Below are positions 33,982-61,428 of a stretch of DNA of 64,000 bases, one piece after another (position 1 is the stretch's first letter; each line of letters starts with the position of its first letter). Under the pieces are notes generated by a model that saw only the letters and a program-made list of their open reading frames with translations, made no database searches and was not told where the DNA came from. The position numbers and the translations under genes are program-made. This stretch comes from Hemileia vastatrix (taxonomy: Eukaryota; Basidiomycota; Pucciniomycetes; Pucciniales; Zaghouaniaceae): NCBI GenBank assembly GCA_030280995.1, contig JASXTE010000013.1:15609001-15673000 (forward strand), written 5' to 3'.

Positions 33982-34691
33982 TAGTAACAGTCTCTAATTT
34001 GCTGTAGCAAAGAAATCTCAACTGGTGTAGACAATCCTTTAGTACTAGCTATAGGCCTTGACCAAGGGAGTTGGAGAAAAACCAGAGAGAAAATCCCCTG
34101 TCCCTTTAGAAAAATATAGTTAGATTTACTTGCTGAAGTAAGTTGGTTCCTGTTTGCTAAAGCCCCTCTTTCAACACACTTGACTTCTTGATGAGCCAAG
34201 AAATTAGTCCCCAGACAGACTAACAGACCAAAGAACTGAAATGTAGACCAATGTCCACACCAGAGAAGGCAAAGATACTTGATGTAGGCTGAAAATACAC
34301 ACCAGAGACAGCAATAATACTTGATATAGCTTGAAAGACTATACCAGAGAACCTGTTGACAAAGTTGAGTTAAATGAAGAACTAACCTTGCAACAAACAC
34401 AGCCAATTGTGGCCCAAAACAGTGAAAACTGAGTGAGGAACAATGATATTACCTCCAGATGGTTGTATGATAATTAAAGTTGCCCCAATCTGTCTTTTTA
34501 CTATGTACACAGACCACCATCTAAGAGCCCATGCACACCAAAAAATTTGGCTCCTGTACCAGCCAAATTGAATAAAAACCCTTCAGAAGCTATCCCCAAC
34601 CTTCTAAAACAGAGGTGGGCGGGACGCCGGACGTTGGAGATGCCACCTGAAGCGGCCCGGCCTCCCTGAAGCCAGAAAACCAATAAAAACA
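33982..34691 (-). repeat. 3' LTR of copy C (about 710 bp)
   Basis: On the minus strand it begins TGTTTTTATTGGTTTTCTGG and ends ...GACTGTTACTATA. Near its end the text AAGGGACAGGGGATTTTCTC resembles the LTR end of copy A. It faces the C-type LTR fragment on the + strand, so 33539-33981 and 34161-34601 form a long imperfect inverted repeat. Confidence 0.7.
34258..34350 (-). repeat. 42-bp tandem repeat in the C-type LTR
   Basis: Two full units and the start of a third, beginning CCAGAGA at 34260, 34302 and 34344. Each contains ATACTTGAT.TAG.TTGAAA. Confidence 0.8.
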
Positions 34692-35041
34692 CCTAATCTA
34701 CTTAGAAAAATTAGCTACAACTACTAAAACCTTTAAAACACCGAATTTTACTATAACAACATTGTGACATGAAATATAGAGCTAAATCAGCCCTATCCAA
34801 TGGTACTAAGTACTTAACCCTAAGACTTAAGGTTAGCCCATAAAACACGAAAAACAAAATTAAACAGCTATCTTTTGTAACTGAAGAATGAGGAATTGAC
34901 CCCTTAAAACTTAGAATATGAAAAATATTATCAAGACATGAAATATATAGAAAAGCTGGGGCTATCCAATGATAGTACCCACATACCTGCAGACCCAATA
35001 TCCACAGAATAAAACCTGAAAAATACCTAACTCTTCAACAG
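34692..35041 (+). other. Stretch between the LTR of copy C and antisense gene 1
   Basis: About 350 bp in which a block is duplicated: near 34742-34836 and again near 34899-34982 the text ACATGAAATATA..., GGCTATCCAATG..AGTAC recurs. It would hold the promoter and 5' leader of antisense gene 1, but no clear TATA box was identified. Confidence 0.4.
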
Positions 35042-35691
35042 ATGTCAATTAAGACATGCACAAACAGCGCCAAAACACACAACAAAGGCCCCTGCCAATG
35101 TTGGAAAACCACATCCTCCCTCCAATTCAGAATGTCCACATTCTTTCTTCATCAAACCACCATGTTCAACCTCCTTCCCAAATCCCCCTCTGAAATGGGT
35201 CCTTGCCAATACTGCATTGACAATAATCTAATATGCACCATCACACCTCCTCTCCATCCATGCAGAACATCCTGAAATGTCTGCCAATCTAGAAAGAAGT
35301 CCTGCTACAGACCTGGTCCATTATCCTCTGAAACAGCTTCACCTCCACCCCAACCTGGTCCATCTTTTACCAGCACCACAAGATCTAGGCCATCCATCTT
35401 GATTCCCAGATTAATCAAAAGGCTACACCCTTCCAAGAAGAGTGCCAAAACCACTAAAACAACAAGTTCCACCATCCCTGGTCCATCTGATGGTAAAAAC
35501 TTCCATTTCTTCTTTCCACTTTATAAAACTTATGACTTCTCAGTTCCTCCATCTTCTGACAGTGATGATAACAATGTAGGATCCATTGAACCAACAACAC
35601 CAAACAACTTGCCCACCATTAAGGCCAAGTTCCAACAACACATGTCTCAACAGAAACACCTTCTGCTAAACTACTTCCAATCCACTCCTGC

Positions 35692-35696
35692 TAGAG
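35692..35696. other. Target site duplication TAGAG of copy G
   Basis: TAGAG here equals TAGAG at 44211-44215. It shows copy G inserted as a whole into antisense gene 1. Confidence 0.95.
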
Positions 35697-36506
35697 TGTC
35701 ACCAGACAACCTACGCACAAGGTCAAGGGTGTTCCTGGAAGTGAGATGGAGGGAGGAGTTTTGAAACTTCATCGACGCACAGAGGAAATGTCCAAGGAAG
35801 TGATTTGAAGATGACTCAAAGGAAGAGCTACTGCTTCGAGATATGTTCCAGTAGAGTTCTAATATAATTTAAAGTAAATATTAAATTCTTAAAATCTCAA
35901 GAAGGGTTGAAATTTCAATAATCAAAGATTTAGGATTTAGAAATGATTACTGAGAAAATAAGGAAAGATAAAATAATAATGATTTAACCTAAATCTTTTA
36001 CCACTATTAACTATATATACGTTTTATAATTTAATTCTAAAGAATTTAGAACCAAAAACCCAACCCCTTTTATATTCTTTACTCCTCCTCCCATTGACCT
36101 CATACCCATCCACTATTCCACACACAACAGACCATTATAAAATACACCCGTTACACCTGGACCCTCCTCACTAACATCCGTCAACCCTTTAATCCTCCAC
36201 TAACCATTCCGTCCATGCTTACTACCCATTTTAATAATCCACAGACATTTAATAAACCTTTTAGCGTAATATTACATTGACTATTGCGCTGTGCATCGCT
36301 TATTGAGGAAAAGACTGAGACACACTATTGAGAGATTGACTAATTTAGATTTAGGGTTTAGACTAGTGCTGTTGAATAGTGAGTACACAAAGGAAAGTCG
36401 CAGTTGCTATGTAGAATTGCTTTCTGCGCTTCAAATATGGATTTAGACCTCTGTATTATTGATTTAATGAGCTGCTTTTGCCTCAAGTGTCACGTGGCGT
36501 GTGACA
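35697..36506 (-). repeat. 3' LTR of copy G
   Basis: On the + strand it reads TGTCACCAGACA...GGCGTGTGACA. It matches 43402-44210 and the solo LTR at 23246. An open frame on the + strand (from 36404) runs out of it into the antisense gene, so an antisense transcript could start in this LTR. Confidence 0.95.
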
Positions 36507-36607
36507 GATGCCCAGGCATAAAAACGCAAGCTCCATTGAGTGTGAGACATATACTTCCCACACTATTTTCCCTTTATTTAATTCTTGTTTATTTATTTAT
36601 TATTATT

Positions 36608-37626
36608 ATGTCAGCTTGTCCAACTCCAGCTCCCACGCCTCCTCACCCCAAAGTGGATGGTGGGCTCCTTACTCGACAGTACTCCAAAGAATGCATGGCT
36701 TTTGAATTGATGGAGTACTTCTGTGTTTAAAGCACAGCCACTTGAGGTCTTTTCCAGAAATGCGAGTTTTGCCAATGGAGACGGGTGGCGTGCAATGTTT
36801 TAGCAAAAAATTCTGACATCAAACAAAGGTTTACCAAGACTAAATATTGGGTAGTACCAAAGACTAAAGAAGTGGTCATAGACATATGGGACGTGTCAAT
36901 CGGGGATGATCAATCTGAAGCAGCTGAGGAGCAAGTCAAGGACACTATGGCATCCTGGGTAACTCAAGCCATGGGTAAACAAAAGGGTAGAAGAGGAGGT
37001 GGATGAATTGGTGGAGGAAGATGAGGAGGAAGTTCCCATTTCAAGGCGGACACCAAAAAAGCGGCAGATATTTATTGAAGATGACGAGGAAGAAAAAAAA
37101 GTAACAGTGGGATTCAAATCAAAGTTATTTCTAGAGGCTGATCGGATGTTTGAAGTAAGTTTTCTTTTATTTTATTTTAATTTAATTTTTTTTTTCAAAG
37201 AATAATTTTACTGATGACCATATGATTTAGAATTTAGATGTCATTGCGGAAGCCCCTACGGTGGAAGCCTTGAGTTTGGGAGCTCCAATTGCGGAAACCA
37301 CTGCTGTGGAAGTGGCGCTGTTGATCCCTACCGAAGAACAGTTACCAGTGATTGCCTCAAGGGAGGATAATGAAGAAACTCTTGACCAGGTATGGTCAAA
37401 AAAACCTCTCCAGGGTCGACAAGCTAGGTTTATTGAAGATTTAAGCGGTGAAGTTGATAAGATTTTTGATTCTGCCTCCTTTGACGTGGCCGAAGAATTA
37501 CCAGAAACTGGGGAAGTGGTACTGGTAGGAGTGGAGGAGGTTTTTGAGAAATGCAGGAAGGTAATAAGGGTGATTTTGGAGAAGATGAAGGGATTGGTTC
37601 GAGAGAAGATAAAGGAGAGAATTTAA
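36608..37626 (+). pseudogene. Antisense gene of copy G, two exons
   Basis: Starts about 100 bp inside the 3' LTR, opposite to gag-pol. Exon 1 (36608-37154) begins MSACPTPAPTPPHPKVDGG. It contains KCEFCQWRRVACN (CX2CX6C) and then an acidic stretch (DELVEEDEEEVP) followed by a basic one (RRTPKKRQ). A 76-nt GTAAGT..TTTAG intron (37155-37230, phase 0) follows, and exon 2 reads openly to the TAA at 37624-37626. Two stops (TAA and TGA near 36728 and 36743) precede the cysteine box and could come from CAA and TGG by single transitions. One frameshift lies near 36980. Without these it would be a zinc-box, acidic-basic protein of about 310 residues. The function is unknown. Confidence 0.65.
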
Positions 37627-38507
37627 AATGGAAGGAAAAAAGGAAAAAGAAATAAAGAGGAAAGAAAAGTAGAAACAATTTGTATATTTAGTTATTTTTA
37701 TTTTGTTGTTTTATTTAAAATTTTAATATTTATTTTTATAAGATTTTGAGAGAAAAAGAAAAAGAAAGAAAAAGATTTAAATAAAATTTTGTTTTAAATT
37801 TTGAAAGAAGAAATAAAAGAATATTTAATTGAAGTAGTTTTAGTTTAAATTTTGAAAAGAAAAAAAATTTAAGTAAGAAAAAAAAAAGAAATAGTTGATT
37901 AAAATAATTTTGTTGAAAATGAAAATTTAATAAAAGAAAAATTTGTTATTTGTGAAAGTTTATTTGTTGAAGTTTTGAGTAATTTTAGTTATTTGAAAAG
38001 AAAGAAAGAAAAGAAGAGAAAAAATAATTTTTCAAAAGAATTTGAAAGAAAGAAGTAATTGTTTGAAGAAATTTTAAAAGAGAGATTTAGATGTTGAAGT
38101 GAAATTCTAGAAGGATTGTTGTGTTGCGTTTGTGAAAATTTTTTGATAGTTCGAGGAAAAGAATTTTTTAAGGAAAGAATGTTTATACAAAATTTGAAAA
38201 GAAAAGAAAGAAAAGAAAAGAAATTTTAAAGAAATTTTAGAATTTTTTATGAATTTTTTATTTATTTTGTTTTAAACTTTATTTTATTTTACTTTAATTT
38301 AATTTAATTTTTTTTATTTTAATTTAATTTGATTTTATTTTTATTTTATTTTATTTATTTTAAAGAAGGTTGAAAAACTTTTGAAAGAAAAAAAAAGAAG
38401 AAAGAAGAAAAAGAAAACAAAGAATAAGAAAATTTTAGAGGTAGAGATTTTTTAGATTTTAAAGAGAAGAAGGAAAAAATAAAGAAAAGAAAGAAAAAAA
38501 AAGAGTT
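37627..38507 (+). repeat. Strand-biased purine-rich tract
   Basis: About 880 bp in which the + strand is almost only A, G and T, with runs such as GAAAGAAAAGAAAGAAAAG and hardly any C. It separates the convergent ends of the antisense gene (37626) and pol (38508), so it would be the shared 3' UTR of both transcripts. No gene is present. Confidence 0.8.
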
Positions 38508-38915
38508 TTAAGGTTTTGGTTTTAAAGGATATTTAAGATGAAAAGATTTTAGGAGTTCAGGGGCGTTAAAAACATTGATGGCTGGTTCCCAGGATGTCTT
38601 GTCTGAATCATCAAGGAAGCCTTCCTATTCCACGAGGTATTGAAGTTTTCCCTTGCGCATTCTTGAATCAAGGATACGACTTACTTCCCACTCTAGATGG
38701 TCTTCTACTTCGACCGGTTTGGGAGGAGGTTGGTTCTTGCCTGGGTATGTTTCTTGAGCCAGCTCCAGGAGAGATACATGGAAAACAGGGTGAATAGCCT
38801 GCCATTTAGGAGGTAGCTTGAGTCGAAATGCAGTTTTAGAGACTTCAGAGTCAATTTAGAATGGTCCCAAGTGTTTTTCAGCCAGTTTCTTTGATGGTTG
38901 AGTCGTTCTAATGTT
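38508..38915 (-). pseudogene. pol: Integrase C-terminus and chromodomain, copy G
   Basis: On the minus strand PSKKLAEKHLGPF and LKLPPKWQAIHPVFHVSLLE (the gypsy C-terminal module) lead to EWEVSRILDSRMRKGKLQYLVE.EGF and DDSDKTSWEPAINVFNAPELL, a chromodomain. It ends FHLKYPLKPKP and TAA at 38508. Chromodomains target integration to heterochromatin by binding methylated histone H3. Stops occur at a Trp (TGG to TAG) and two other places. Confidence 0.85.
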
Positions 38916-39994
38916 TCATGCGTTGAGCCATACTTTGTCGCCTGGTTTAAAAGAAGGAGCAGATTGTCGATATTTGTCGGCCTGTTCCTTGTATCTTTGA
39001 ATCACTAATTCCAAATTTGATTTAAGTTCCTCTTGAAGTTGTAATATGGTTTGAAGATAATGTTCCGCAGGATGATTAGTTCCAACATGGATTGAGTTGA
39101 ATTGAGGATGTCTTCCATAAACAGTTTTGAAAGGAGATTGTCGTGTTGAAGAATGAGTCGAGTGATTATAAGAAAATTCGGCCAATGGTAACCATGTGGT
39201 CCAATCTTCTTTTTGGTAACTGACATACATTCAAAGATTTTATTCAAGGATTTGATTGACCCTTTCCCTTTTCCCATCGGTTTCAGGATGATAGGACTTG
39301 GAGAGGTTCCTTGTGATATTGAGTTGTCAACACAGTTGAGTCCAGAATGTGGATACAAACAATGAGCCTCTATCTGAGATAATATCATTAGGTAAGCCAT
39401 GTTTGGAAAATACATATTCTAGAAACAATTTTGAAAAATCTTCTGCTGTAGCAGTAGTAGTGGTTTTAATGAAAATAGACATTTTTGAAAATCTATCTAC
39501 TATTACTAATATAGCATCAAAATTATTAGAAAGAAAAGTTGAGAAATGAAATCCATTGATAAAGATTCCCAAGGTTTAGAGGGAATAGGAAGTGGTTGAA
39601 GCAACCTATGCTTTCAGTGACGGGGAGCCTTATTCCTATTACATTTGTAACAAGCTCTTATATAGGCCTTGATTTCTCTGGTCATTCCTGGCCAGAAGAA
39701 ATCCCTTGATATTAACTGGTAGGTTTTATCAACCCTAAAATGACCAGCTAATGGAGAATAATGTCGACTATTGAAAATCCATAATTTTATTTCATTGTTG
39801 TCGGGTATGACTACTCTACCTTCGAAAACTAATTGACCTGATTCAATTCTAAATATTTTGGCCCCTTTCTTTGAGAGTATTTTGTCTTTTAACCCTAAAC
39901 AATAATTGTCCTTCAACTGAGCTTCCAGGATGTTGGATAGTGGATTTTGAAAAGATTGAATTGTCATTGAATTAAGTTGATGAGTTGTTAACAT
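38916..39994 (-). pseudogene. pol: Integrase zinc and catalytic domains, copy G
   Basis: The HHCC domain is HYSPLAGHFRVDKTYQLI...CYKCNRNK (about 39760-39620). Core residues are D in MDFIS (about 39575), D in IISDRGSLFVSTFW (about 39370) and E in GKRERVNQ (about 39260). LPLAEFSYNHSTHSSTRQSPF follows and leads into the C-terminal module. Three frame changes are needed. Confidence 0.85.
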
Positions 39995-40014
39995 TGATTA
40001 ATTGAAAATTGATT

Positions 40015-40464
40015 TCACATTTGCTGGGTTCTTGTCAGCAAATGTGTCCTCCACTGTGGGTAAACGTCATCCCTACGTGACAAGATATCTGGGACAATAC
40101 AGTTCTTACCTGGGCGATAGGAAGTAGAAAAAGGAAATTCAGACAGAAATTCAGCCCACCTGGATTGACGCCTGGTAAACACTTTGGAAGACATAAAGTA
40201 TTTCAAAGCATTATTTTCTGTTAGAATTCGAAAAGTACTATCTAGGCTGAGAAGAAATGAGTGCCATTTTTTAAGACAATGGATTATGGCTAAAAGCTCT
40301 TTGTCATGAATTTCATAATTTAATTCTGGTGCAATGAGTTTGCGTGACTCAAAAGTAACAGGATGAAACAATTTTGTTTCAGGATTTAATTGAGAAATGA
40401 CCCCTGAAATAGCATAATGGCTAGCGCCTGTGTTGACTATTGTCAAAGCAGAAGGATCAAAGTG
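40015..40464 (-). pseudogene. pol: RNase H, copy G
   Basis: TGASHYAISGVISQLN stands where TDAS is expected, so the first catalytic Asp is Gly. ELLAIIHCLKKWHSFL keeps the Glu. LTENNALKYFM has Glu for the usual Asp. SRWAEFLSEFPFSTSYRPGKNCIVPDILSR completes the domain. It is probably inactive. Confidence 0.85.
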
Positions 40465-41352
40465 TCAAAGAATTGGGGCTGTAGTGAACGCAGTCTTCAA
40501 TGCTTCAAATTCCTTTCGTGCTGTAGAAGTAAAAACAAAATCAATATCTTTTCTAAGAAGAGAAGTGAGATAAGAAATAGTTTTAGAGTAATCTTTAATA
40601 AATCTTCTATAGAAATTCACAAAACTCAAAAATCCTTGGAGGGATTTAATGGTTTTGGGCTCAGGCCATTCCAGGACTTTTTGGACCTTTTTGTTGTCCA
40701 TGACTAAACCATCAGTGGATAACGTAAAACCCAAAAAATCGATTGATTTAAGATGGAATTCGCATTTATTGTGCTTGGCGTAGAGACTGTGATCTCAAAG
40801 TCGATTTAAAACCTTTCAAACATGATGAATGTGTTCATCCAGTGTCTTTGAGAAAATTAAAATATCATCTAAATAGACAATAACATCCTGAAAGATGTCA
40901 TTGACAAAAGTTTGAAAAGTTGATGGTGCTTTGAAAAATCCAAAAGGCATAACTAAATATTCAAAATTACCAAATCTAGTGCGCATTGCAGTCAGTGGTT
41001 CATGAACTTCCACAATGCAAATAAGATTATAAGTGCCTCTAAGGTCAATTTTAGAAAAGAAATTAGCACCATTGAAAAGGGTAAGAAGTAATGACATAAG
41101 AGGAACAGGATATGCATTCTTCTTAGTGACTGTGTTGAGATTTCTATAGTCAACACACAACCTAAGACTACCATCCTTCTTCATTACAAAATGAACAGGG
41201 GAGCCGGTTGGAGATTTACTGGCTCTGATGAAACCTTTGGCTACATTCTCTGCAATGTAGTCTCAAAGAACTTGAGATTTTTCCTTCAACAAAGAATAGA
41301 CAGGACCTGCCGGAGGTACTGGACCTATTAAATCTATTTGATGGTCTTAGGG
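40465..41352 (-). pseudogene. pol: Reverse transcriptase, copy G
   Basis: The palm reads [58 protein letters not shown] and the catalytic box YLDDILIFS (41184-40816). The thumb follows in another frame after a stop (CEFHLKSIDFLGFTLSTDG, FLSFVNFYRRFIKDYS). YLDD is intact. Confidence 0.9.
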
Positions 41353-42123
41353 TCAATGAGGTTGTAACTTATTGGTCTTGCTGATTGAGAAAACATCAAG
41401 GAAATCATGATAGATTTCTGGTAGAGTTGATTTAATGGCTTCAACGTTGATTTGGTCGTCCTCATCATCTTCGAAAGAATCTGTCAAAGGAAAACCAGAA
41501 TTGAGAGAGCATAATTCAATTACTTTGAGGCAATTTAAATCCTCTTTGAGTGAAGTCATTGAGCTAGAAGGGTTATCCAATTGCTCATTTAGAGAAAGAT
41601 CAGATGCTTGCAAGTCATCTGGCAGAGATTTTTCCTCTAGCAGGAGGTTGTCAGGCTGGTTGTTTAACTCCCTATTGACCTGCATTGAAGAATTAGAAAT
41701 ATACTTAGTGCGTGGGGTGATCAATCCCCCTGACCAATCAATTTCAGGATTCAAATGCGTTAAAAAGTCATGGCCAAGGATGGTATCGTTTATTCTTGGG
41801 GTGTCCAAGACTGATAATTCCCACTCAAAGGGGGGAAAGTTTGGAAAGTCAAAAACCCATAAAACTTTCTTACTTACCCAATATTTGGGTTCCTCTTATT
41901 TGACTAAGTAAATTTGAGTTCAATCAATATCTGTAAATTTTAGTTGTAACTTCTTGGCAAAAGATAAACTAACAAAAGAAATTGAAGCTCCAGAGTCTAT
42001 AAGACAACTGAAGGGGGTATCCTCCTTAAAAAGAATGAATCTCAAGCGGTTTAAGTTAACTCCAGTCCTTAAGACATGGAGGTTCTGTGCACTGGGTGAT
42101 ATAAGATAGTTTGCTTTGCACAC
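41353..42123 (-). pseudogene. pol: Aspartic protease and linker, copy G
   Basis: The active site is CLIDSGASISFVS (about 42025-41985). After a stop and frameshift near 41915 the flap/C-terminal block TILGHDFLTHLNPEIDW follows, and then an acidic linker. Its order relative to RT matches other chromoviruses. Confidence 0.85.
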
Positions 42124-42137
42124 AAGTAAAATATCTA

Positions 42138-43324
42138 CTAGTTTTTTGACTTGGAACTAGTACCTTCTCTTTCCTTCAACTTTACACACTCTTCCAGCTT
42201 CTGCTTACCCTCACAATACATACATAACCCATTATCCGCTTGTATCTTCCTCTCAGCTTCTTTAAGTTCCCCTTTAGGATCCAGTGTTTTGGTGATATCA
42301 CCTGGGGTCAAGCTTTTAGGTCGAGGTTTGTCCTTTCCCTTATTAGGTTTGGATTGAGTTGAGGAGGATTGAATTTTCCGTGGGTGTGAAGAAGGTCCCG
42401 ATTTAAAATTTAGGCCTTGAGATTGTTGGCGTATTGACAATGTTGAAGTCATCCTTGGTAAATGCCGTCGAGTTCAAGGGTTCGATCCATTAAATCTGTT
42501 AAAGTAGTCATCTTCTGACCGTGAATATTTAACTGATCCAGAATCCTCGAAGGAAGTCCTTTTTTGAAATGAGACTTGAGGGTAGCATCATTCCAACCTA
42601 ATTGAGTTTAAAGTGCTCTGAAATTTGAAATATATTCAGAGGCTTTACCATTATCACTCATGCAAAGAAAATCAAGTTCAATTTCTGCATTGTCAGTTTC
42701 ATTAGGATCACTGAACAACGTGAAGAGTTGCTCTTTGAGCTTTTCCCAGTTATTAATAAGTAAGTGGGTTTCTGTCAAAGAGATCATGAGAAGATAAAGT
42801 TCAAACCATCTTGCTGCTTTTCTGGCTAGGAATGAAGAAGCGTAAACAACCTTTGACCGGTCCTTATTGAAGGTTTGAGGATCATTGTGGAACAGGAGCT
42901 TGCAGGTTTGCAAGAAGGGCCGCAATCTTTCTGCATGTTCTCCATTAAATTTATCAGGAGATTTCATAGAAGGAGTTTTGAATTTAGATCCCTCCGAAGA
43001 CGTTGAATTTGAAACGGTCTTCATGAAAATTCTCATGAAATCTTCCAGAGAATAAGATGGTCCAGGTTCCGAAGGTTGACCAGAAGGGTGAGTAACAGGG
43101 GCCAATGGTGCCTCGTGCATTGTATCCTCTCCTTCTTCATCATCACTAGAGTCATCAAAATCTTGTGGGATGTCTTCTAAAGATTGGACTGAATGTTGCC
43201 GTTCCCTAAGGTTGAGAGGTTCCAAGGAGTGAGTGCAGGAAACAGGCCGTGTGGCTGTTGGCCTGCCTCTGGCGCGAGCTCTAGTAGTAGCGCCAATAGA
43301 AGGAGTGCGTTGAACAGATTCCAT
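42138..43324 (-). pseudogene. gag: gag, copy G
   Basis: The ATG at 43324 gives MESVQRTPSIGATTRARARG. The capsid block KFKTPSMKSPDKFNGEHAER and ARKAARWFELYL is typical of fungal chromovirus Gag. After a CAA-to-TAA stop (near 42607) and a frameshift (near 42460) comes a damaged zinc knuckle CMYCEGKQKLEEC, whose histidine is lost. Confidence 0.85.
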
Positions 43325-43386
43325 TTTAAATATTTAGAAAAAACACCTGAAAAGGGACGTAGTAGTGCAAAGAATCAGAAATACAG

Positions 43387-43400
43387 AGAATTAAGTTATA
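43387..43400 (-). other. Self-priming site of copy G
   Basis: One base inside the 5' LTR the minus strand reads TATAACTTAATTCT. It is complementary at 13 of 14 positions to the predicted RNA 5' end AGAATTAAATTATA (43744-43731). No TGG-type tRNA site follows the LTR. This is the arrangement of Tf1, whose RNA primes its own cDNA. Confidence 0.7.
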
Positions 43401-43401
43401 C

Positions 43402-44210
43402 TGTCACTGGATGACCTACGCACAAGGTCGAGGGTGTTCCTGGAAGTTAGATGGAGAGAGGAGTTTAGAAACTTTGTTGAGGCACAGAGGAAATGTCCAA
43501 GGAAGTGATTCGAAGATGACTTGAAGGAAGAGCTACTGCTTCAAGATATGTTCGAGATGAGTTCTAATATAATTTAAAGGTAATATTAAAATTCTTAAAA
43601 TCTCATGAAGGGTTGGAAACTCAATAATCAAAGATTTAGGATTTAGAAATTATTAATGAGAAAATAAGGAAAGATACAATAATAATGATTTAACCTAAAT
43701 ATTTTACCACTATTAACTATATATATATTTTATAATTTAATTCTAAAGAATTTCAAAGCAAAAACCCAACCCCTTTTATATTCTTTACTCCTCCTCGCAT
43801 TGACCTCATACCCATCCACTATTCCACACACCACAGACCATTAAAAAATACACCCATTACACCTGGACCCTCCTCACTAACATCCGTCAACCCTTTAATC
43901 CTCCACTAACCATTCCGTCCATGCTTACTACCCCTTTTAATAATCCACAGACATTTAATAAACCTTATAGCGTACTATTACATTGACTATTGCGCTGTGC
44001 GTCGCTTATTGAGGAAAATACTGAGACACACTATTGAGAGATTGACTAATTTAGATTTAGAGTTTAGACTAGCACTGTTGAATAGTGAGTACACAAATAA
44101 AGTCGCAGTTGCTATGTAGAATTGCTTTCTGCGTTCAAGTATGGATTTAGACCTATGTATTATTGATTTAATGAGCTGCTTTTTCCTCGAGGGTCACGTG
44201 GGGCGTGACA
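43402..44210 (-). repeat. 5' LTR of copy G
   Basis: An 809-bp LTR at the gag side of the element, TGTCAC...GTGACA. It holds the promoter, and TSD TAGAG follows at 44211-44215. Confidence 0.95.
43731..43780 (-). promoter_or_regulatory. TATA box and predicted start of family III RNA
   Basis: TATAAAAGGGG on the minus strand (43780-43770) is 36 nt upstream of AGAATTAAATTATA (43744-43731), the segment matching the priming site. The same pair occurs in the solo LTR at about 23674 and 23711. Confidence 0.65.
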
Positions 44211-44322
44211 TAGAGATCCACAGGACATTGAGAACAGAAGACACCTCATTCACCAGTTCAAGGCTAATTCTGAACACTTCATTTCATCTCTTGATTCCCT
44301 CTGTAATTCCACTAGTACTTGA

Positions 44323-44995
44323 GTTTGATTCAGAAAAGAAAAATTGACCACACCCTCTATAGGATGTAACCACAAAACAAACCTCAGTTTTAAGTCTTGG
44401 GGGACCATCCTCATTTTATAATCTTGTGGGACTCCAAAAACCTCAGTTTCAAGTCTTGAAGGACTCAAAAACCCTCAGTTTAAAGTCTTGGGGAACTCAA
44501 AAACCTAAATCATAAACCCAGAACCAGAGATCAACCATATTAAGACACAGAGAAAAAACGAAAATTCTGGGGTAATTGTGAATAGAGCTTCCAGCCCATC
44601 AATTACCCCCAAAATTGCCTTTGCTAAATTCAGAGGATCCCCCTGTGGATACCCTCTGCCAATATTTCAAACCCATTCCAACAACAAAAAACTCATTCCT
44701 CAGTTTATAGTCTTGGGGGACTACACCATCAAAAAATCCTCAGTTTAAAGTCTTGGGGGACTAATCTTGAAACCATAGATTTTTCAGTTTAGAGTCTTGA
44801 TGGACTTTTCTTGAAACCAGCCAGTTTAAAGTCTTGGAGGACTCCCAGAGTTTTGCATAAAATAAACGCAGCCAATTTCATACAGAACACACCTACAGCC
44901 AAACTGCTGAACTTCCACCTTCACTTCATCATCTACCCATCACTGACAAAAATCTCCTTCTTATCTCTTTCCATCATCTTTTCTCATCACAGATC
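44323..44995 (-). other. Hairpin and AGTC-motif region between the two antisense genes of copy C
   Basis: Seven copies of the motif written on + as CAGTTTAAAGTCTTGGGGGACT (with variants, each under 23 bp) stand at about 44390, 44441, 44475, 44699, 44738, 44786 and 44821. The hairpin GGGGTAATTG/CAATTACCCC (44569-44578 with 44600-44609) lies among them. No sense-strand gene is present. Confidence 0.75.
44569..44660 (-). repeat. Hairpin module of copy C (first)
   Basis: Perfect 10-bp stem, 21-nt loop. The loop contains CCAGCCCATC as in the other modules. The stem has the T-A version of the variable pair. Confidence 0.8.
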
Positions 44996-46564
44996 ATGGC
45001 TGGATCCCCTGATGTTGACCCCTCTACTCTTCCTTGCTTCACTGCTCCCAAGGACTATGCCTGCAAACAGTGCTTCCACATGTGCAGACCTTGGACATTC
45101 ACTCTTCCAACTCCTGAAGCCCAATTCTACAACAGGGCTTGTGATTCTTGCTACTCCAAAAAGAAGAAATGTGACAGAGATGCCAAATACCCTATTCCTC
45201 CTCCTTCACCTTCTCATAAATACCTCTCCATATCCCCTACAAGATCCCCAGAGCTTGGTTCAGCCTCTTCATCTTTATCCTCAGCACCATCCAGAAGATT
45301 CCGGAACTCAGTTTCCAGAACTCTCCCAAAAAGGCCTGCGTTAACTTCCCAAGAAACAGCTTTTATCTCTGCTAAATTAGCTACAAAAGCTTCCAAATAA
45401 GCTTCTAGGCTTCTAGACCACATCCAGGGGGCCCGGCCAACATTGGGCAGCCCTCCCGCCTCACAAGACAGTAAAAATCAGGCTCAAAACCTCCAAAGAC
45501 AACCATAAGACAGCCAAATTCAACCAATCAACGAAAACAACTCCACACAATTACCTCCCACTACTTCCAGAGCAATGCAGCCAACCCTTCCAAGGTCCAA
45601 AAACTCCAAATTTACCCAAACTTCAAGGAGAAATGCCAGAGTACCTCAGGAAGAAACCAGAGCACCCAACACTGCACCAAAGCAACAACTTCATCCCCAG
45701 TTAAGACAACAAAACTACATCTCTCCTCTGTCAGCCAACTATTCTTCTGACAGTTCCATTCCCTCAAAAGCTCCATCCAGAAGAGATCAATCTACTTCCA
45801 AATCACCCTCTCCTGCTCCATCCTTTGAAAATCCTGGTACTCCATCACCAGCACCTCCTCCGACTGAATCCAACAGAAATATCAACCACAAAAACAACAA
45901 CAATCCCACTGCTCCAACTAGGCCCCAGGAACATCAGCCTCCTAGTTCACCTTCTCAAAATCTTTCAGAGGAAGACCAAGTGAATCCATATCTTTCCCTG
46001 ATTGATCCACCTACTATGACCATTCCAAAATCTTCAGAAGTCCAAATTACAGCTGCTTACAAATTTGATGAGCTTCTAATCTGTAAGTACCAAATTAATT
46101 CATCCCATTTCTTCAAAAAAAATAATTACTGATCCAATTCTTCTTGTCTATTTGGCACCCCTCCTCCTGAATCTACTATTGGAGTTGGACAACCTCTAGA
46201 AACTTCTTTGACCCTGGATTATGGAGACATGAAACAACACCTCAGCACCATGTGTTCAAACATGCTGAAAGCCTTTGCCCTCCATGGACCATTAAATGAC
46301 TTTGAGAAAACCTTGAGGAAACAACTATTGGACGACCACTGGAAGATGTCTAGGATCATTAAGCACACCTTCCAACAATCCATTCCTGCCTCTTCTTCTT
46401 CTTCCTCTGAACTTCCCTCTAATCCAATTCCTGCCCATTACAATTCATATAATCTCTCCAGCAGGATGCACTTCAAAGTACACAGTGCTTCCCACAACCC
46501 CAACAAAAAACAAAAACGACATCATAATCCAGACCAGCCTCCAGAAACTTCATCATCCAGATAA
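44996..46564 (+). pseudogene. Antisense gene 2 of copy C, two exons
   Basis: Opposite to gag-pol. Exon 1 (44996-46082) starts MAGSPDVDPSTLPC and carries CKQCFHMC and CDSCYSKKKKCDRD, a fungal zinc-cluster-like pair with a basic second half. A long Pro/Ser/Asn-rich stretch follows. The frame is continuous with two stops (TAA at 45398-45400 and another near 45508). A phase-1 intron (GTAAGT at 46083 to about 46151, 69 nt, with branch-like ACTGAT) precedes exon 2. Exon 2 (GTPPPESTIGVGQPL, then MKQHLSTMCSNMLKAFALHG...LRKQLLDDHWKM) ends in a basic tail NKKQKRHH. The acceptor reads CTAT where CTAG would fit the frame. About 499 residues if whole. Intron place, phase and layout match antisense gene 1. 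Confidence 0.65.
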
Positions 46565-47424
46565 TGAGATCCTGAAAAAAGATTAAAAATATAATAATAA
46601 ATAAATAATAAAAACAATTAATAACTATAAATTCTAATTATTTTTAATTTTTTAATTTTTAATTTTTAATTTTTTTTTGACTCACTCTACTAACATACTA
46701 AACTTGAAAATTGATAAATAAAATAAAAATAAATGAAGTAAAATAAAAGATAAAAAATAACACAAATGGTATCCCCCAGCCAATTGAGGAGCTGATCCCC
46801 TGATACCTTGCCCACATCCAAGTGCACCTTGATGTGATACACCTTAAATAATTTAAATGATTTGAAATAAGAAACAGAAATTGAGGGTAATCATGAGAAT
46901 AATAATAATAAAAAATAACATTAATGAAAATAAAAATAAAAAATAAAATAAAATAAAATGATAAAATAGCATTGCCCGGCCAATTGATGAGCCTTTCCCC
47001 ACCAATGCTTGCCCACATCCAGGTGACCCTGATGTGGTAACACCCTATATTTTTGATTTTATAATTTTAACAACCCCCATAAAAAGATTAAAAGAAAAAA
47101 AGAGAAAAAAAATAATCTGAAACTACTATCTAGCAAAATCATAACTAAAAAATCAGAGAAAGTCCAGCTCCATGGATGGTCCAGATTAAGAGAAGGTCCA
47201 GTAGGATAAACCAGTTTATAGAAATGATCACTGGGTGGGCTCCCTCCAATAAGTAAAAATGATGGGAGACCACCAGTAATCCACCACCAAACCAAAAAAA
47301 AAAACAAAAGATAAAGAAGCCAGTCCCAAACCAGTTTAAAGTCATAGTTGACTTGAAACCTGAATAAAAACCAACAGAACTAGAATTCAACTAGGAAAAA
47401 CAAAAGACTTGAGACAGACATTCT

Positions 47425-47931: not shown

Positions 47932-48960
47932 TTAAGATTGCACCATCCAACTGTTCCAAAACATAAGAACCTTCAGAAACCTGAGATCTGACTCTGTAAG
48001 GTCAATTCCATCTGTCAGAAAACATTTTTCCCACTGACTCTCCAAACTTCTATTATACACCAAAGCCAAAGAACTAGGTTTCAAGGTATTCCTGAGTCTA
48101 TGAGCCAAATTCTTGTCCAGGTATCTGACTGATTGATTCCTAATCTTCATCATTCTAGAGTATGACTTCTCTTGACATTCCTCTGTACATTCCAACTGTT
48201 GCATCCTGGCACAGAGAAATTCTTCTGTTGAGTGCACATCATCCCAATCAATTCCAAGATAAGAAACAGCTTCCAAATCCACTAGTAGAATAGCTTTCTT
48301 CCCAAAGATTAATTCATAAGGGGAATAGCCAGTTTTCCTTTTCACAGTGACCTTATTAGCAAATAACACTAAGGGTAAATAAGACCTCCACTTTTCAGCA
48401 ATAACTCCACACATCTTCACCAAAGAATTCTTGACAACTTGATGGCCTCTTTCAACCATTCCTTCAGCTTCAGTATAATAAGGTGTAGCCTCTCTAACTT
48501 TAAAACCAATACTTGACACATTTTCTTTTAATTCAGCTCCAAACTCTGGCCCACCATCAACAGTCACCAACTTCATCAATCCATATCTAAACACCCATTC
48601 CTTCTTTAAAAATTCTGCCACATTTTTGGCAATCAAATTAACCAGAGGCATGGCCTCAACCCAACCAGAAAAATCATTCCTAGCAAAAATCAAGTATTTA
48701 TACATGTTGTCTTTAATATGGCCAGAATCCTGAGTAACTCTTCCAAACACAGTTACTTCAACATTAGCACGGCCAGCCTCTTTAGGTTTCAAGTGATGTC
48801 TTCTCCGAAATTCTTCACCAGATTAAACCCAACCCTGAACATCCAACTTCATACCTGGCCACTAAAATCTATCTGCTACTCTCCTATAATTCTCCCCAAA
48901 GCCTCTAAGACCAAGTTCTTCATGCAAAGACTTCCACACTAACTCTTGAACCTTCTTCTG
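47932..48960 (-). pseudogene. pol: Integrase, copy C
   Basis: An open frame of 286 codons (48792-47932) holds most of the core: the first Asp in QDSGHI, TVDGGPEFGAE and EAEGMVERGHQ with Asp and Glu kept. SYLPLVLFANKVTVKRKTGYSPYELIFG and NRSLESQW follow. The upstream zinc domain (48950-48800) is damaged: HEELGL lacks the second His, both cysteines are replaced, and TGG in RF.WPG has become TAG. Confidence 0.85.
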
Positions 48961-49223
48961 AGTCACCACTACTTAAGGATTCAGATGTCTCCTCCTCATT
49001 TATCTCCTTCCTGACACATAGAATTCAGGACTCTTCTTCTTTATTTCCACTCAACTATTATCATCACAAATATCTGGCCTCTCCAAGGTTAACAGATATT
49101 TAACCATAATAAAATAAAACCCAGTCCGACCCCAGGTCTCATTTTCAAAATCCAGCAAAACAACATTCAAGGGTACACCCTGTCATGAAAATCTCCAGTG
49201 TGCACATGAGAAACACAACCAGC
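48961..49223 (-). other. pol: RNase H-integrase spacer of copy C
   Basis: Decayed polyprotein spacer. It is related to 3470-3700 of copy A by position; no catalytic motif is expected here. Confidence 0.5.
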
Positions 49224-50007
49224 TCATCCAGGACACCAATCCCTAAACTTTGGTAAATCTTTTTCCTTCCACTGAATCTTAAGGGAATTCATTTCACTAA
49301 AAAAAACATTATCTAATTTTGAGTCAACCCAAACAACAGGCCCATCTTCATCAACAACGATATCCTGATCACCAGAATCAAGATCAGATCCAGCCAGTTT
49401 TACCTCTTGGGGGAGGAGAGAACAATCTTCCAGTTTAGTTTCATGTAGGAAGAGAGAAAAATCTTCATCACCCTTTGTGCTGGCCCTAACCACTTGGACA
49501 TCTTCATCAAATTCTTCATAGTCTAAATCTTCATCTGTGGGTGGTCTTCTTGATAATCCATCTGGCATTGTAAAAGTTTTTCCAGGTTTTTGTACCAGGT
49601 CAAACGCAAAATGCTGATTAAATTCCACCCACATAGTCATTGGAGCATATGAAAGACTAGGTTTTTTGATCATTTGAACCAGAGATTTTTCATCCACCTG
49701 CAGCTCAAAATTCTGCCCCGAAAAAACAGTTTGCAGCTTCTTCAAAAAAATTTTCTATACCACAAAATTCAAACTTAGGCTGAGAATATCTAGATTCAAT
49801 TTCATTAAATACCATGGACTCCTATCTTACTGGCCCGACCCTCCCATTTTTATCTTCCTGAGACAAAACAGCACCAGCAGCAATATAACTTGAGTCCACT
49901 TCCAGATAAATTTTTCAAGCTCCCACTACATAATCCAACTTTTGAAGAATAATATTTTCATCTACCATCTTCTTCAACTTCTAAAAAGCCTCTTCACACT
50001 CTTCAGT
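49224..50007 (-). pseudogene. pol: RNase H and spacer, copy C
   Basis: The frame 49745-49224 reads FELQVDEKSLVQMIKKPSL and FDLVQKPGKTFTMPDGLSRRPP, the C-terminal half of a gypsy RNase H. It then continues as an acidic spacer ending RDWCPG. The N-terminal half (49746-50007) is decayed, with only partial text (SGSYIAAGAVLSQED-like) visible. Confidence 0.75.
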
Positions 50008-51221
50008 TCATACCCACTCTGCGCCTTTCTCAGTCAACTTCCTCAAAGGTGAAGCCAACAAAGAAAAATGGTTAAGAAAAATTCTGACATTCACACAAAC
50101 CCCCAAAAATGCTCTGACTTCAGTAGTATTTTTAGGCCTTGGCCATGACTGAATTTTATTAAATTTTTTCTTTGCCATAATCCTTCTGTCTTTACATACC
50201 ACATGACCCAGAATTTCTAGAGCCATAACACAACAACAAAGATTTGACCCAGAAATGGTCAACCCAGCCTCTTCAATCCTAAGCAATATTTTTTCAAGAG
50301 TGATCAAATACTCCCAAACAAGCCTTCTTATACCTGGATTCTCTTTCAGCACCTCATTTCTATAATCAGTGGAGGGTCTTTTGATTCCACCATCATCAAT
50401 AAAAATACCAGCATGATTAGGAACCTCATCCTGTAAAATACAAGCCATTTTTGCTTGATATACTGCTACTGAATTAGTTGCTACTTGAGGCAACCTAATG
50501 AGCTGAAATCTTCCCATAGGAGTCTCAAAAGTTTTAAGTGGCCTTGAAACCATGTGAAGTTACATTTCATCATAACCACCTATAATATCCCCCAAACCGT
50601 AACACACCCTTCAGAAAAAGCTTCCACAAAGTCCTCTGCACTTGGAGGCATTCCAGAATCCTTTATAGTGACTCTATTTAAGGCTCTTAGATTATGCACC
50701 ACCCTCAGCTTCCAATTCTTCCTCTTTACACAGAAAACTGGACTTGAGTAACTAGAAGTTGATTGTTCGTATAAAAATGTCCTGACTCTTTCCCTAAAAA
50801 TCCTTACAAAATCATCCCTAATAGTAGCTGGAGTTAGAATAGGTTTGATTTGCAAAGGTTCATGACAAACCACAGGAATTAAGTAAGGTTCCCCATAAGA
50901 GTGTTTCAACACACCCCTTGTCTCTTCAACAAATGCCACTGCTTCTCCCTCAGCACAATAACTTGCAACAAAAACTTCTTTTCCTCATCAGACAACCACC
51001 CATCAGGACCAAGATTAACAACTTTCAAACTTTCCACAGTAACTCTAGAAGTTTCCACAAAATCAGGGGGATTATCACCAGAGGATTACAGTACCAATTT
51101 CTTGACAAAGGAGGTTTCTTCAAAGGAGGATTTAAACCTACAAGAATAGAATTATTGATAGGCCTAATCTTCTGTGCTACCTTCTTATAATTTGAAGCTC
51201 TGCCTTCAATTTTAGGGATCT
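50008..51221 (-). pseudogene. pol: Reverse transcriptase, copy C
   Basis: Starts with NLGPDGWLSDEEKKFLLQVIV (about 51000). The frame 50939-50580 carries SSPVFCVKRKNWKLRVVHNLRALNRVTI. After a frameshift near 50580-50550 the frame 50553-50008 contains RPLKTFETPMGRFQL and the catalytic box FIDDGGIK (about 50405), then LEILGHVV and VRAFLGVCVNVRIF. FIDD is a legal variant of YxDD. Confidence 0.85.
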
Positions 51222-51739
51222 TCAGGACATCTTCACCACCAGACCTGGAAAAAAAACCAAGCTTCTAGTCTCCCTTCCAATCAGAATAACATTGAAATAA
51301 ACCAGAGGTGCAGAAAAATGAGTCTCCAGCCCCTCACCAAGTTTTCCAGCAGAATCACAAATGTATTCTACCTCCCCAGAAGAAACCCTTCTCCTAGTCA
51401 ACAGAATCTTCTGCCTATAAGCCAACCCAGGACTGAAAGCATACCACTTCCAATAAGTAAGGGAAACCTGACCCTGATTTATCCTTTCCAGGACAGAGTC
51501 CATAACATTAACTTGGCCAGAAACCACTGGCCTCTCAAAGTGACTCTTTGCTTCACTACCTTGGTCCTAGAAGATTCTTGAGGACCAGAACCACCAAAAT
51601 ATTTATCATCAACAGGAATCAAACCAGATCCCTCACCAGAACCTCTAACTCCAGAGGGCTTTGGCAATGAAGCAAAAGGGACATCTTCCTCAGAATCAGA
51701 ATCAACATCCATAGGCATTGGCTCACCATTCATGTCCAA
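51222..51739 (-). pseudogene. pol: Gag end and protease remnant, copy C
   Basis: MDMNGEPMPMDVDSDSEEDVPFASLP matches the acidic block of copies A and D. A frameshift follows, then RRRVSSGEVEYICDSAGKLGEG and FSAPLVYF. The text breaks off just before the DSGS active site, so the protease core is deleted. Confidence 0.8.
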
Positions 51740-53179
51740 TTCTCCAAAACAAGGGGGCCCATATCTGCCATATCTTTCTGCATTTTATACAGCTACTCTT
51801 TTCTGTACTTTTTCCTAGCTGTACTCAGATTAGGATCCACCTTTGAAGCCTTAGGCTTTGGTTGGGCCTGAGAACTGCTCTTAGGCCTTCCCACCTTTCC
51901 TGCTTCCACATCATAAACACCAGCCAAGAATTTCCCACTTGACTTTCTACCACAAGAATACAACTCCAAACCAAAAAAGGAAGATGTAAATGAGACTCTA
52001 TTAGCCTCCTTTCCCTTTCCCTTTCCATAATCTCCACATTTAAGAGAAGAAGAAGCCTCATTAGGCAACTCTTCAAATCTGTGCCTCTTTGAGTTGAAAT
52101 TATCTCTCGTCCTGACCAAGTCCACTGGAGCCTGACCATCATTAGACTTCACAAAAGAGCTATCTGGAAACTTGAACACTTTCCAATCAAATTCTACCTT
52201 CCCTTCAGACACATCCCTATTCAGTGCCCAACAATCATCGGACTTGTGGCCCTTCCTGCTGCAATAAGAGCTGACCCAAGGATCACTCCTACCAGCCCTC
52301 CTTTCAAAATCTACAGGCTGAGAAGGAGCCTTATTGGTCTTCTGAACCTCTGAACAAAAATATGTAGCTGTTTTTTCAAATCAGACAACTGCTCCACTAC
52401 TGGATCAACCTCTTTTGGCTTCTCAGGAGCCTTTCCCTTATTCACATTTTCCATATTCCTAGATTCCTCCATATATTCAGAAAAAGCTTCACTGACCTTG
52501 GTAACATACTTGGTGCTTGATCTTGGAAAGAATCCACTTCCAAAAGTTTCAGATGACCCTCCACAAACTCCTTAACCACAGAAAGAGCAGGTAATTTCTG
52601 ATTACCATTAGGAAGAGTCATCATCTTATTCTTCCTTTCCAACTCCTTCAGCACATCAATCCTGACATTCCTATTAAGAGCAGACCAGAATATATTCCTT
52701 TCAGAATCAGTACTCTCCAACTCCTGAATATCCACCAAATAATCCACCACTGGCTCCAACTGAGCCAGAATCTTCCTATAAGTATGGAGGTTGTCCACAA
52801 CTCCATAAGATTGCCATTCACTTGCAATCATATTGAGATCCACCATTTAATATCTGGATCCCCACCTTTCTGTCATTTGCAGACACAACTTTTTCTAATC
52901 TTTCCTCCTATAACCCTCCATAGCAGCAACCTTCTTCACCAGAGCTCTTCCACTAATGTAGAAGATGACTTGCTTCACCATGTCCAAGTGAGAAGCAGTA
53001 TTCACATTCCCAGCAGCTTCAAAAAGCTTCAGAAACAACTTCAAATCCTCCCCCATAAACATAGGCCTCTTCCAAGACTTGATCATGACAGAAGGCCTTA
53101 AAGAAACAGGAGGATTACTATCCTCAGGTGAACCAGATCCACCCCTACCAACACTAGAGAAAGAGGGCCCAGAAGCCAT
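51740..53179 (-). pseudogene. gag: gag, copy C
   Basis: The ATG at 53179 opens MASGPSFSSVGRGGSGSPEDS. TASHLDMVKQVIFYI and SERNIFWSALNRNVRIDVLKELERK follow, then a knuckle YCSRKGHKSDDC near 52260-52220 without its first Cys, and VEFDWKVFKFPDSSFVKS. Stops and three or more frame changes interrupt it. F's LTR begins 13 bp upstream of the start codon. Confidence 0.85.
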
Positions 53180-53192
53180 GGTCCAATAGATT

Positions 53193-61424: not shown

Positions 61425-61428
61425 TAGT

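Follow-up and report, generated by a model that had tools for sequence, protein, structure and literature searches.

The window, a 64,000-nt stretch of the Hemileia vastatrix genome, contains a Ty3/gypsy element (family C) with two spliced genes, gene 1 and gene 2, running antisense to its gag-pol (Table 1). Both antisense genes are real, and both are broken in this copy. Copies of the host element scored above the Pfam cut-offs for protease, RNase H, H2C2 and rve, while RVT_1, at 26.9 bits, stayed below its cut-off of 29.6. LTR pairs typical of Ty3/gypsy were found in both copies examined (L040:1612-2680/L043:3417-4503, 93.9%; L042:1427-2518/L044:3477-4549, 92.5%), and a target-site duplication was read for the nested element only. 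As initially read from the window, the genes lie between integrase and the 3' LTR, and they do so in all four ten-kb copies as well. Family C thus carries an aORF-3R, an ORF opposite gag-pol in the interval between integrase and the 3' LTR.

Table 1. Features of the window (positions in nt; rows, aligned genomic copies).
Feature	Position	Strand	Remarks
3' LTR of the host, a family-C Ty3 element on the - strand	34026-35113	-	Homologous to LTR pairs of L040/L043 and L042/L044
GC-rich stretch with CGG/CCG in family-C LTR	34620-34660	.	Candidate zinc-cluster operator, partly decayed in window
Gene 1 exon 1	35042-35492	+	First part inside LTR; conserved coding from ~MFNLL at 35162
Polypurine tract adjoining 3' LTR, read on - strand	35114-35128	-	By eye; abuts LTR edge
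Gene 1 intron, phase 1	35493-35543	+	GT/AG without exception across 19 rows
Gene 1 exon 2, first part	35544-35696	+	Through target-site duplication TAGAG
Second Ty3 element (family N), cuts gene 1	35697-44210	-	LTRs 35697-36506 and 43402-44210
Gene N, antisense gene of nested element, broken in window	36608-37626	+	One intron ~37155-37230
Gene 1 exon 2, remainder including stop codon	44216-44322	+	tblastn 44212-44322, 89% identity
Gene 2 exon 1	44996-46082	+	Relatives show CX2CX6CX15CX2CX6C; linker rich in Ser/Pro
Gene 2 intron, phase 1	46083-46151	+	Acceptor AG changed to AT in window copy
Gene 2 exon 2	46152-46564	+	Ser-rich and basic tail, helical look by eye
gag-pol of host element, with stops and frameshifts	47932-53194	-	Integrase is the part nearest the antisense genes
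LTR of T3-family element, then gag frame	60303-61426	+	CGG/CCG cluster ~60792-60811

The sequence-only reading had placed a spliced antisense pair inside one Ty3 element. The frames, introns and cysteine motifs are where it put them, but a separate Ty3 element of family N splits gene 1. The two LTRs of this nested element are 93% identical, its target-site duplication is TAGAG, and its insertion site is empty in four of four family-C copies (L039-L042). Elements inserted into one another also occur at several other loci. The nested element carries a third antisense zinc gene, gene N, which had been missed and whose position between pol and the 3' LTR was seen in the window only. Relatives of gene N show CX2CX6CX12CX2CX6C, the cysteine spacing of gene 1, and the gene is under purifying selection (14 rows). 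Its intron is in phase 0 in L073 (ATG to donor, 546 nt), as opposed to phase 1 in gene 1 and in its T3 orthologue described below. Profile comparison with T3/gene 1 (hhalign) aligned the six cysteines without gaps at an E value of 0.0019 and a probability of 14%; a common origin of these genes is tentative. Gene 2 is more securely related to gene 1/T3, with a probability of 92% and an E value of 6.6e-7, while its comparison with gene N yielded 1%.

Gene 1 spans 236 codons in the window, with one stop (35273-35275) replacing a cysteine of the second half. The start first assigned to it falls in the LTR, and selection is seen only from about the MFNLL codons (35162) onwards; the in-LTR part carries no selection signal (2 N and 1 S changes on internal branches). 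The intron diverges at the noncoding rate between splice sites that do not vary. Gene 2 has two stops in the window (45398-45400 and 45506-45508). Its phase-1 intron lies at the place proposed, but the window has lost the acceptor and is the sole exception among 30 untruncated rows, 29 of which keep AG. Loss of frame and intron among related copies had been named as evidence against the genes; across rows, both are conserved. A 19-nt deletion shortens the protein in many gene-2 copies, yet the family spread.

The tandem arrangement recurs elsewhere in the genome: every one of the 15 gene-1 loci and of the 30 gene-2 loci holds the partner. Among the loci counted are L009, which is the window itself, and L045, which duplicates the place of L042. 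Genes of this kind are also present in two further Ty3 families. ORF length also exceeds expectation. In 44216-46600, the four longest plus-strand ORFs sum to 712 codons, compared with a 99th percentile of 505 in 500 shuffles; the longest single one (207 codons) lies above the 95th percentile (168) and below the 99th (215). The longest ORF of gene 1 (183 codons) exceeds the 99th shuffle percentile (171). Conservation among copies is stronger evidence than ORF length.

Frames are open in many genome-wide copies of the antisense genes, and we estimated dN/dS from these copies. On internal branches, gene 2 gave 0.12 for codons 1-134 (0.20 for codons 1-65 alone), 0.52 for the linker and 0.32 for exon 2, and gene 1 gave 0.11 for the zinc part, 0.54 for the rest of exon 1 and 0.43 for exon 2. 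Internal values across genes 1, 2 and N thus run from 0.11 to 0.54, rather than the value of 1 that would have spoken against coding, whereas plus-strand controls (shifted frames and noncoding sequence) gave 0.87-3.1. Terminal branches are higher than internal ones, the mark of a gene selected during element replication. The loci had been picked as the top scorers, out of thousands, against a query exon, which biases dN/dS downwards for codons within that query. Three parts lay outside the queries, namely the gene-2 linker and the second exons of both genes, and dN/dS is low there too. Within gene 1, codons 23-39 show 8 N and 0 S changes on internal branches, and one stop in the zinc part arose on an internal branch. 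Gene 2 counts comprise 28 rows: truncated loci (L015, L017, L032) and near-duplicates (L022 of L021, L026 of L014) were left out, L009 was entered as the window row, L040 was dropped as the same place as L013, and the 3' ends of L014, L020 and L016 were masked. Gene 1 counts comprise 20 rows (L045 being the same place as L042) and gene N counts 14, with the mutation spectrum taken from third positions because little flanking sequence was available.

We also considered the ORFs as shadows of coding on the opposite strand. The minus-strand frame that shares the wobble position has internal dN/dS of 0.27 over gene 2 codons 1-134 and 0.45 over exon 2, but over codons 1-134 it contains a stop in every row; the plus frame is stop-free there in 23 of 28 rows and each minus frame in none of 28. 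On these counts the shadow explanation was rejected, and the antisense reading is preferred over the minus-strand frames. Conserved coding of the antisense genes is well supported. That they are captured host genes or chance ORFs, functionless in the element, is very improbable: zinc-cluster genes are common in fungi and no single ORF of the gene-2 region exceeds the 99th shuffle percentile, but internal dN/dS well below 1, complete pairing and conservation across families argue against it.

Gene 1 has an orthologue in T3, a related element of very recent age, with 27% identity and the same phase-1 intron (198 columns, E 4e-19); this intron is 83 nt long in L060. Exon 1 is stop-free in all 150 scored places, and the gene lies antisense between pol and the 3' LTR in the one copy that shows pol, a copy whose 5' side is cut off. 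Gene 2 within the T3 element was considered and rejected, as the T3 locus L072 holds no gene-2 match outside the T3 zinc regions. Copy A of the window, said to keep the same exon junction, did not bear this out: the best exon-2 remnant scores 51 (shuffle 95% level 47, shuffle maximum 61), and both T3 exons score under their shuffle 95% level there.

The spread of T3 with intact genes weighs against the antisense gene limiting the element and sparing the host, whether as an HBZ-like self-repressor or as antisense RNA. The gene does lie antisense to the genomic RNA, and HBZ of HTLV-1 is a precedent, but RNA-only action is contradicted because selection acts at the amino-acid level. A dsRNA or siRNA route is raised in the available passages of PMC7264820; overall, we regard repression as distinctly unlikely.

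The zinc-cluster reading is supported by the Pfam score of the T3 orthologue. The Zn2Cys6 consensus spacing is CX2CX6CX5-12CX2CX6-8C. T3, gene 1 and gene N, with 12 residues between the halves, fit this pattern, and gene 2, with 15, lies outside the CX5-12 range. Against the Pfam Zn_clus family (PF00172, gathering cut-off 21 bits), T3 scored 25.8 bits (22.6 in another search), gene 1 18.6 bits (12.1 in another search) and gene 2 10.6-11.5 bits; gene N gave no Zn_clus match. Each half is matched on its own by Pfam, apparently in swapped order, with the basic half second. The T3 zinc model is of low confidence (mean pLDDT 50.5), and all 19 Foldseek matches to it are zinc-cluster proteins, none significant (best E 0.56), so fold similarity backs the reading weakly. 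A single match in a PDB sequence search (E 0.86) was dismissed as chance. For T3 exon 2 a helical hairpin is predicted (pLDDT block means 91-94, residues 31-70). No match to TRP28 (PF04195) was listed for eight antisense exon pieces from T3 and genes 1, 2 and N (E <=10, HMMER filters on), and we found no other Pfam domain, catalytic or not, in the antisense zinc proteins. From its sequence, the protein probably binds DNA.

A zinc-cluster protein with no catalytic Pfam domain, encoded beside integrase, might instead tether the integration complex to CGG-rich DNA or bring it into the nucleus, and the nested insertions would suit such a cofactor. We give this only a small chance, as the sole target-site duplication read, TAGAG, is AT-rich and the antisense gene would have to be expressed independently once the element is integrated.

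CGG is the half-site of Zn2Cys6 proteins. The T3 LTR holds ten CGG/CCG triplets within 50 nt, a density reached in none of 1,000 shuffles. At the same position, the L042 LTR, the sole family-C LTR tested by shuffling, holds five in 50 nt (2 of 1,000 shuffles). The T3 cluster is only mildly more conserved than the remaining LTR (216 of 1,045 windows as low or lower). Family-N LTRs have at most two triplets per 50 nt and no cluster, and the copy A LTR has none. A 16-nt GC-rich string common to the L042 LTR and L041 gene 2 was set aside, since exact copies turned up in no more than 4 of 73 loci, including L042's own place.

CpG observed/expected is 0.08-0.62 in six older LTRs versus 0.98 in the young T3 LTR, which hints at CpG decay and perhaps methylation in the older ones. 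This contrast would suit an anti-silencing factor, a zinc-cluster protein that binds the element and keeps off heterochromatin, DNA methylation or RNAi. The anatomy is the same, an element-encoded, apparently DNA-binding protein with a clustered motif in noncoding sequence. VANC of the VANDAL DNA transposons, according to the accessible parts of PMC5735166 and PMC10398659, is such a sequence-specific accessory protein acting on the transposon's own noncoding motifs, albeit in another transposon class and host. The present data do not separate this role from plain promoter control; we consider it rather unlikely.

We favour, at a probability of roughly 0.4, a Zn2Cys6 regulator that the element encodes and that would act on the element's LTR, made from the spliced gene antisense to gag-pol just inside the 3' LTR. 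Antisense transcription would probably start in or beside the 3' LTR (34026-35113), within which a candidate promoter would lie, and yield a small, putatively nuclear Zn2Cys6-type DNA-binding protein with a cysteine cluster, a basic Ser/Pro-rich linker and a helical tail that perhaps dimerises. It may bind the CGG/CCG sites of the element's own LTRs and tune the sense promoter, most likely keeping it on, so that an LTR-borne circuit would work as a retroviral regulator does, with two such genes in one family. More tentatively still, a fungal Ty3 group may possess its own antisense zinc-cluster transcription factor with swapped halves, while its LTRs would supply the matching CGG operators, making a self-contained circuit in at least two and perhaps three families, duplicated in one. 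Since the predicted protein class suggests DNA binding and a candidate site is present in the LTR, the question of function is directly testable in vitro. If true, an LTR retrotransposon turns a fungal transcription-factor fold on itself, and its many LTR target sites across a repeat-rich genome could rewire neighbouring genes.

HBZ is a spliced bZIP protein, in contrast to the zinc clusters here, and we claim no sequence relation. The likeness is that of an antisense nuclear regulator, with an antisense promoter in the HTLV 3' LTR (passages of PMC11963269 and PMC7264820). Judging from the accessible text of the sources, antisense extra ORFs are already known in plant and Botrytis elements, and the zinc-cluster type is a variant on these. 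Their function is described as unknown in PMC7264820, and DNA binding and a regulatory role are proposed for plant aORF-3R in PMC7264820 and PMC11963269. The plant cases, maize Grande gene23, rice RIRE2 and Silene Retand, share the antisense position between pol and the 3' LTR but, in the same partial texts, have TRP28 (PF04195, Retand) or no clear known domain, unlike the zinc cluster, conserved intron, gene pair in one family and fungal host found here. The brtn gene of Boty-like Ty3 elements in Botrytis cinerea (Zhao et al. 2011) is an additional gene on the antisense strand of a Ty3 element from a fungus, compared here solely through excerpts of the papers citing it (PMC7264820, PMC8365987). 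Fungal Zn2Cys6 factors such as Gal4, Leu3 and Put3 (PF00172) share CX2CX6CXnCX2CX6C together with Pfam and fold similarity; the element proteins differ in their seemingly swapped halves, 12-15-residue linker, lack of another detected Pfam domain and retrotransposon origin. No paper among the matches listed from the open-licence literature describes a Ty3 element with an antisense gene for a zinc-cluster protein.

No protein relatives outside the host genome emerged, either for exon 1 of gene 2 (E <=0.01, 18 candidates) or for the T3 plus gene-1 alignment (526 candidates), and no related loci were found with pol in viral and genome contigs or with alignment A1 in viral contigs. The pol query matched 562 proteins at E <=1e-10 among 7,978 scored; within the best 120 of these 562, the named ones come from Puccinia, Austropuccinia, Phenoliferia and Tilletia, along with two partial proteins from a bacterial MAG.

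The window is a 64-kb piece of the 747.6-Mb genome (791 contigs), with a GC content of 34.6%; among the named matches listed, the nearest relatives of its pol proteins come from rust fungi and allied Pucciniomycotina. Gene 1 and gene 2, the antisense zinc-cluster-like genes of the host Ty3 element (family C), lie on the + strand and are positioned between integrase and the 3′ LTR, with gene 1 starting at the LTR edge or just beyond and gene 2 downstream of it. In the two family-C copies taken further, LTR pairs were 93.9% and 92.5% identical. The gene 1 flanks of the nested family-N element are contiguous in 4/4 10-kb copies, which thus represent the empty site. Elsewhere, open stretches at 17127-17859 (−) resemble by eye a SNF2-helicase-type protein and are perhaps another mobile or host gene.

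Features of the Ty3 elements and their antisense genes (window positions, or L loci fetched from the same genome with their own coordinates)
Feature	Position	Strand	Remarks
Family C Ty3 gag-pol	about 53194 to 47932	−	Ty3 element on − strand
Family C 3′ LTR	34026-35113	−	corresponds to LTRs of copies
Family N Ty3 element	35697-44210		interrupts gene 1; LTRs 93% identical; TSD TAGAG
Gene N	36608-37626	+	antisense gene of nested family N, absent from the sequence-only reading; broken in window
T3 family, very young Ty3	L039:212-661; L060-L072	− (L039)	exon 1 copies 99-100% identical

The orthologue of gene 1 in the related T3 family aligns with it over 198 columns at 27% identity (E 4e-19). Both have the pattern CX2CX6CX12CX2CX6C, a basic Ser/Pro-rich linker, a related tail (predicted in T3 to be a helical hairpin) and a phase-1 intron at the equivalent place. 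Among the T3 copies, pol is visible only in L072, which another LTR truncates on its 5′ side; here the T3 gene runs antisense to a 968-codon pol frame and adjoins an LTR resembling window 60303-61426. Gene 2, with X15 between its cysteine halves and a phase-1 intron, matches the T3/gene 1 cysteine region (hhalign probability 92%). Relatives of gene N show CX2CX6CX12CX2CX6C, spaced as in T3/gene 1; exon 1 is open in several of them, and exon 2 of L073 has stops.

T3 scores above the Pfam Zn_clus cut-off (25.8 versus 21 bits). Its best match places the second cysteine half on the profile start and that of gene 1 places the first half on the profile end, so the halves appear, from these two short matches, to be in swapped order relative to Zn_clus. 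Modelled with low confidence (mean pLDDT 50.5), T3 exon 1 shows a single short helix in each cysteine half. All 19 Foldseek matches to this model up to E 10 were zinc-cluster proteins, with none below E 0.5; their titles include Leu3, Put3, Gal4, Ppr1, Pho7 and Hap1, which belong to this class, and we assign 1cld ('DNA-binding protein') and 6gys_B (CBF3-CEN3) to it as well.

The intron junctions proposed in the sequence-only reading (35492/35544 and 46082/46152) are correctly placed, although the gene 2 acceptor has decayed in the window copy. In gene 1, each of 19 rows retains the donor GT and the acceptor AG, and the intron has diverged (0.063) like the LTR (0.062) and 3′ noncoding sequence (0.067), whereas exon divergence is lower (0.044-0.049). 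Among 30 untruncated gene 2 rows, the donor is GT in 28 and GC in two, and the acceptor AG is kept in 29; both T3 splice sites are kept in 12/12 loci. ACTGAT precedes the acceptor in the introns of genes 1, 2 and N alike and is a possible common branch point.

Across the genome, we scored the best 150 of 18334 (gene 1), 9882 (gene 2 exon 1) and 5419 (gene N) first-look candidates, and the best 150 of 8717 for T3 exon 1; owing to this restriction, the scored places give no copy numbers and do not sample the copies evenly. For gene 1, 138/150 were stop-free (counted from the listing). All 150 scored T3 copies were stop-free and 99-100% identical, which suggests a recent burst. Gene 2 is present at 15/15 gene 1 loci and gene 1 exon 2 at 30/30 gene 2 loci; the two genes move as a pair. 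Downstream of codon 134, some gene 2 copies (for example, L011, L019 and L033) have lost a GC-rich stretch of 19 nt flanked by short repeats; the resulting frameshift reduces the product to a zinc-domain protein about 150 codons long. Rows with the deletion are scattered over the tree, and it is perhaps recurrent template slippage.

Selection was estimated from parsimony counts of changes on the tree (28 rows for gene 2, 20 for gene 1), with flanking noncoding sequence as the neutral spectrum. For gene 2, internal and terminal dN/dS were 0.12 (N 15, S 42) and 0.56 in codons 1-134, 0.20 (N 6, S 9) and 0.55 in codons 1-65 alone, 0.52 (N 104, S 68) and 0.87 in the linker, and 0.32 (N 43, S 43) and 0.94 in exon 2, versus 3.1 and 2.6 in shifted frames and 1.4 in noncoding sequence. 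Internal values for gene 1 were 0.11 in the zinc part (N 3, S 9, plus one stop), 0.54 in the remainder of exon 1 (N 13, S 9) and 0.43 in exon 2 (N 15, S 12); from MFNLL on, dN/dS was 0.36 internally (N 31, S 30) and 0.59 terminally (controls: shifted frames 0.87 and 1.29, LTR 1.23, 3′ 1.09). This combination of low internal and higher terminal values is what a gene required for element spread should show. The opposite-strand frame sharing the wobble position of gene 2 also gave a low value (0.27), but 0/28 rows lack stops in that frame versus 23/28 in the + frame. Gene N (14 rows, neutral spectrum from third positions) is likewise under purifying selection, at 0.34 internally (0.45 in codons 1-65, 0.31 in codons 66-181) and 0.67 terminally, with shifted frames at 2.4 and 1.5.

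We take the product to be a putative zinc-cluster regulator, encoded by the element and acting on its own LTR. CGG is the half-site of Zn2Cys6 proteins. The T3 LTR (L072) holds ten CGG/CCG triplets in 50 nt (matched by 0/1000 shuffles), and the family-C LTR tested (L042) five at the corresponding position (2/1000), making this cluster a candidate target; the LTRs of family N and copy A, another element copy, lack it. In 14 T3 LTR rows, the cluster keeps 94.6% of its CpGs versus about 80% outside and has diverged by 0.028 versus a mean of 0.047, but 216/1045 windows have diverged as little. Six older LTRs have CpG observed/expected ratios of 0.08-0.62, compared with 0.98 for the young T3 one, as expected if old copies undergo CpG methylation and decay. 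Besides regulation of the LTR, an anti-silencing role of the gene, tethering of integration by its protein and self-limitation of the element remain as alternatives.

Antisense ORFs at the same element position are already described for plants and Boty (PMC7264820, PMC11963269, PMC8365987, PMC4227169). None of the literature matches listed showed a zinc cluster, splicing that is conserved, paired genes or a matching LTR cluster.

A 16-nt GC-rich string (CCAACGTCGGGCGGCC), with few exact copies, occurs in the family-C LTR (L042:2026) and, in opposite orientation, in gene 2 exon 1 (L041:4442). Finally, at window about 59998-60305 a T3-family LTR, and at L042:1121-1428 a family-C LTR, adjoins one and the same point (window 60305) of a third Ty3 type: two different elements form junctions with it at nearly one base.
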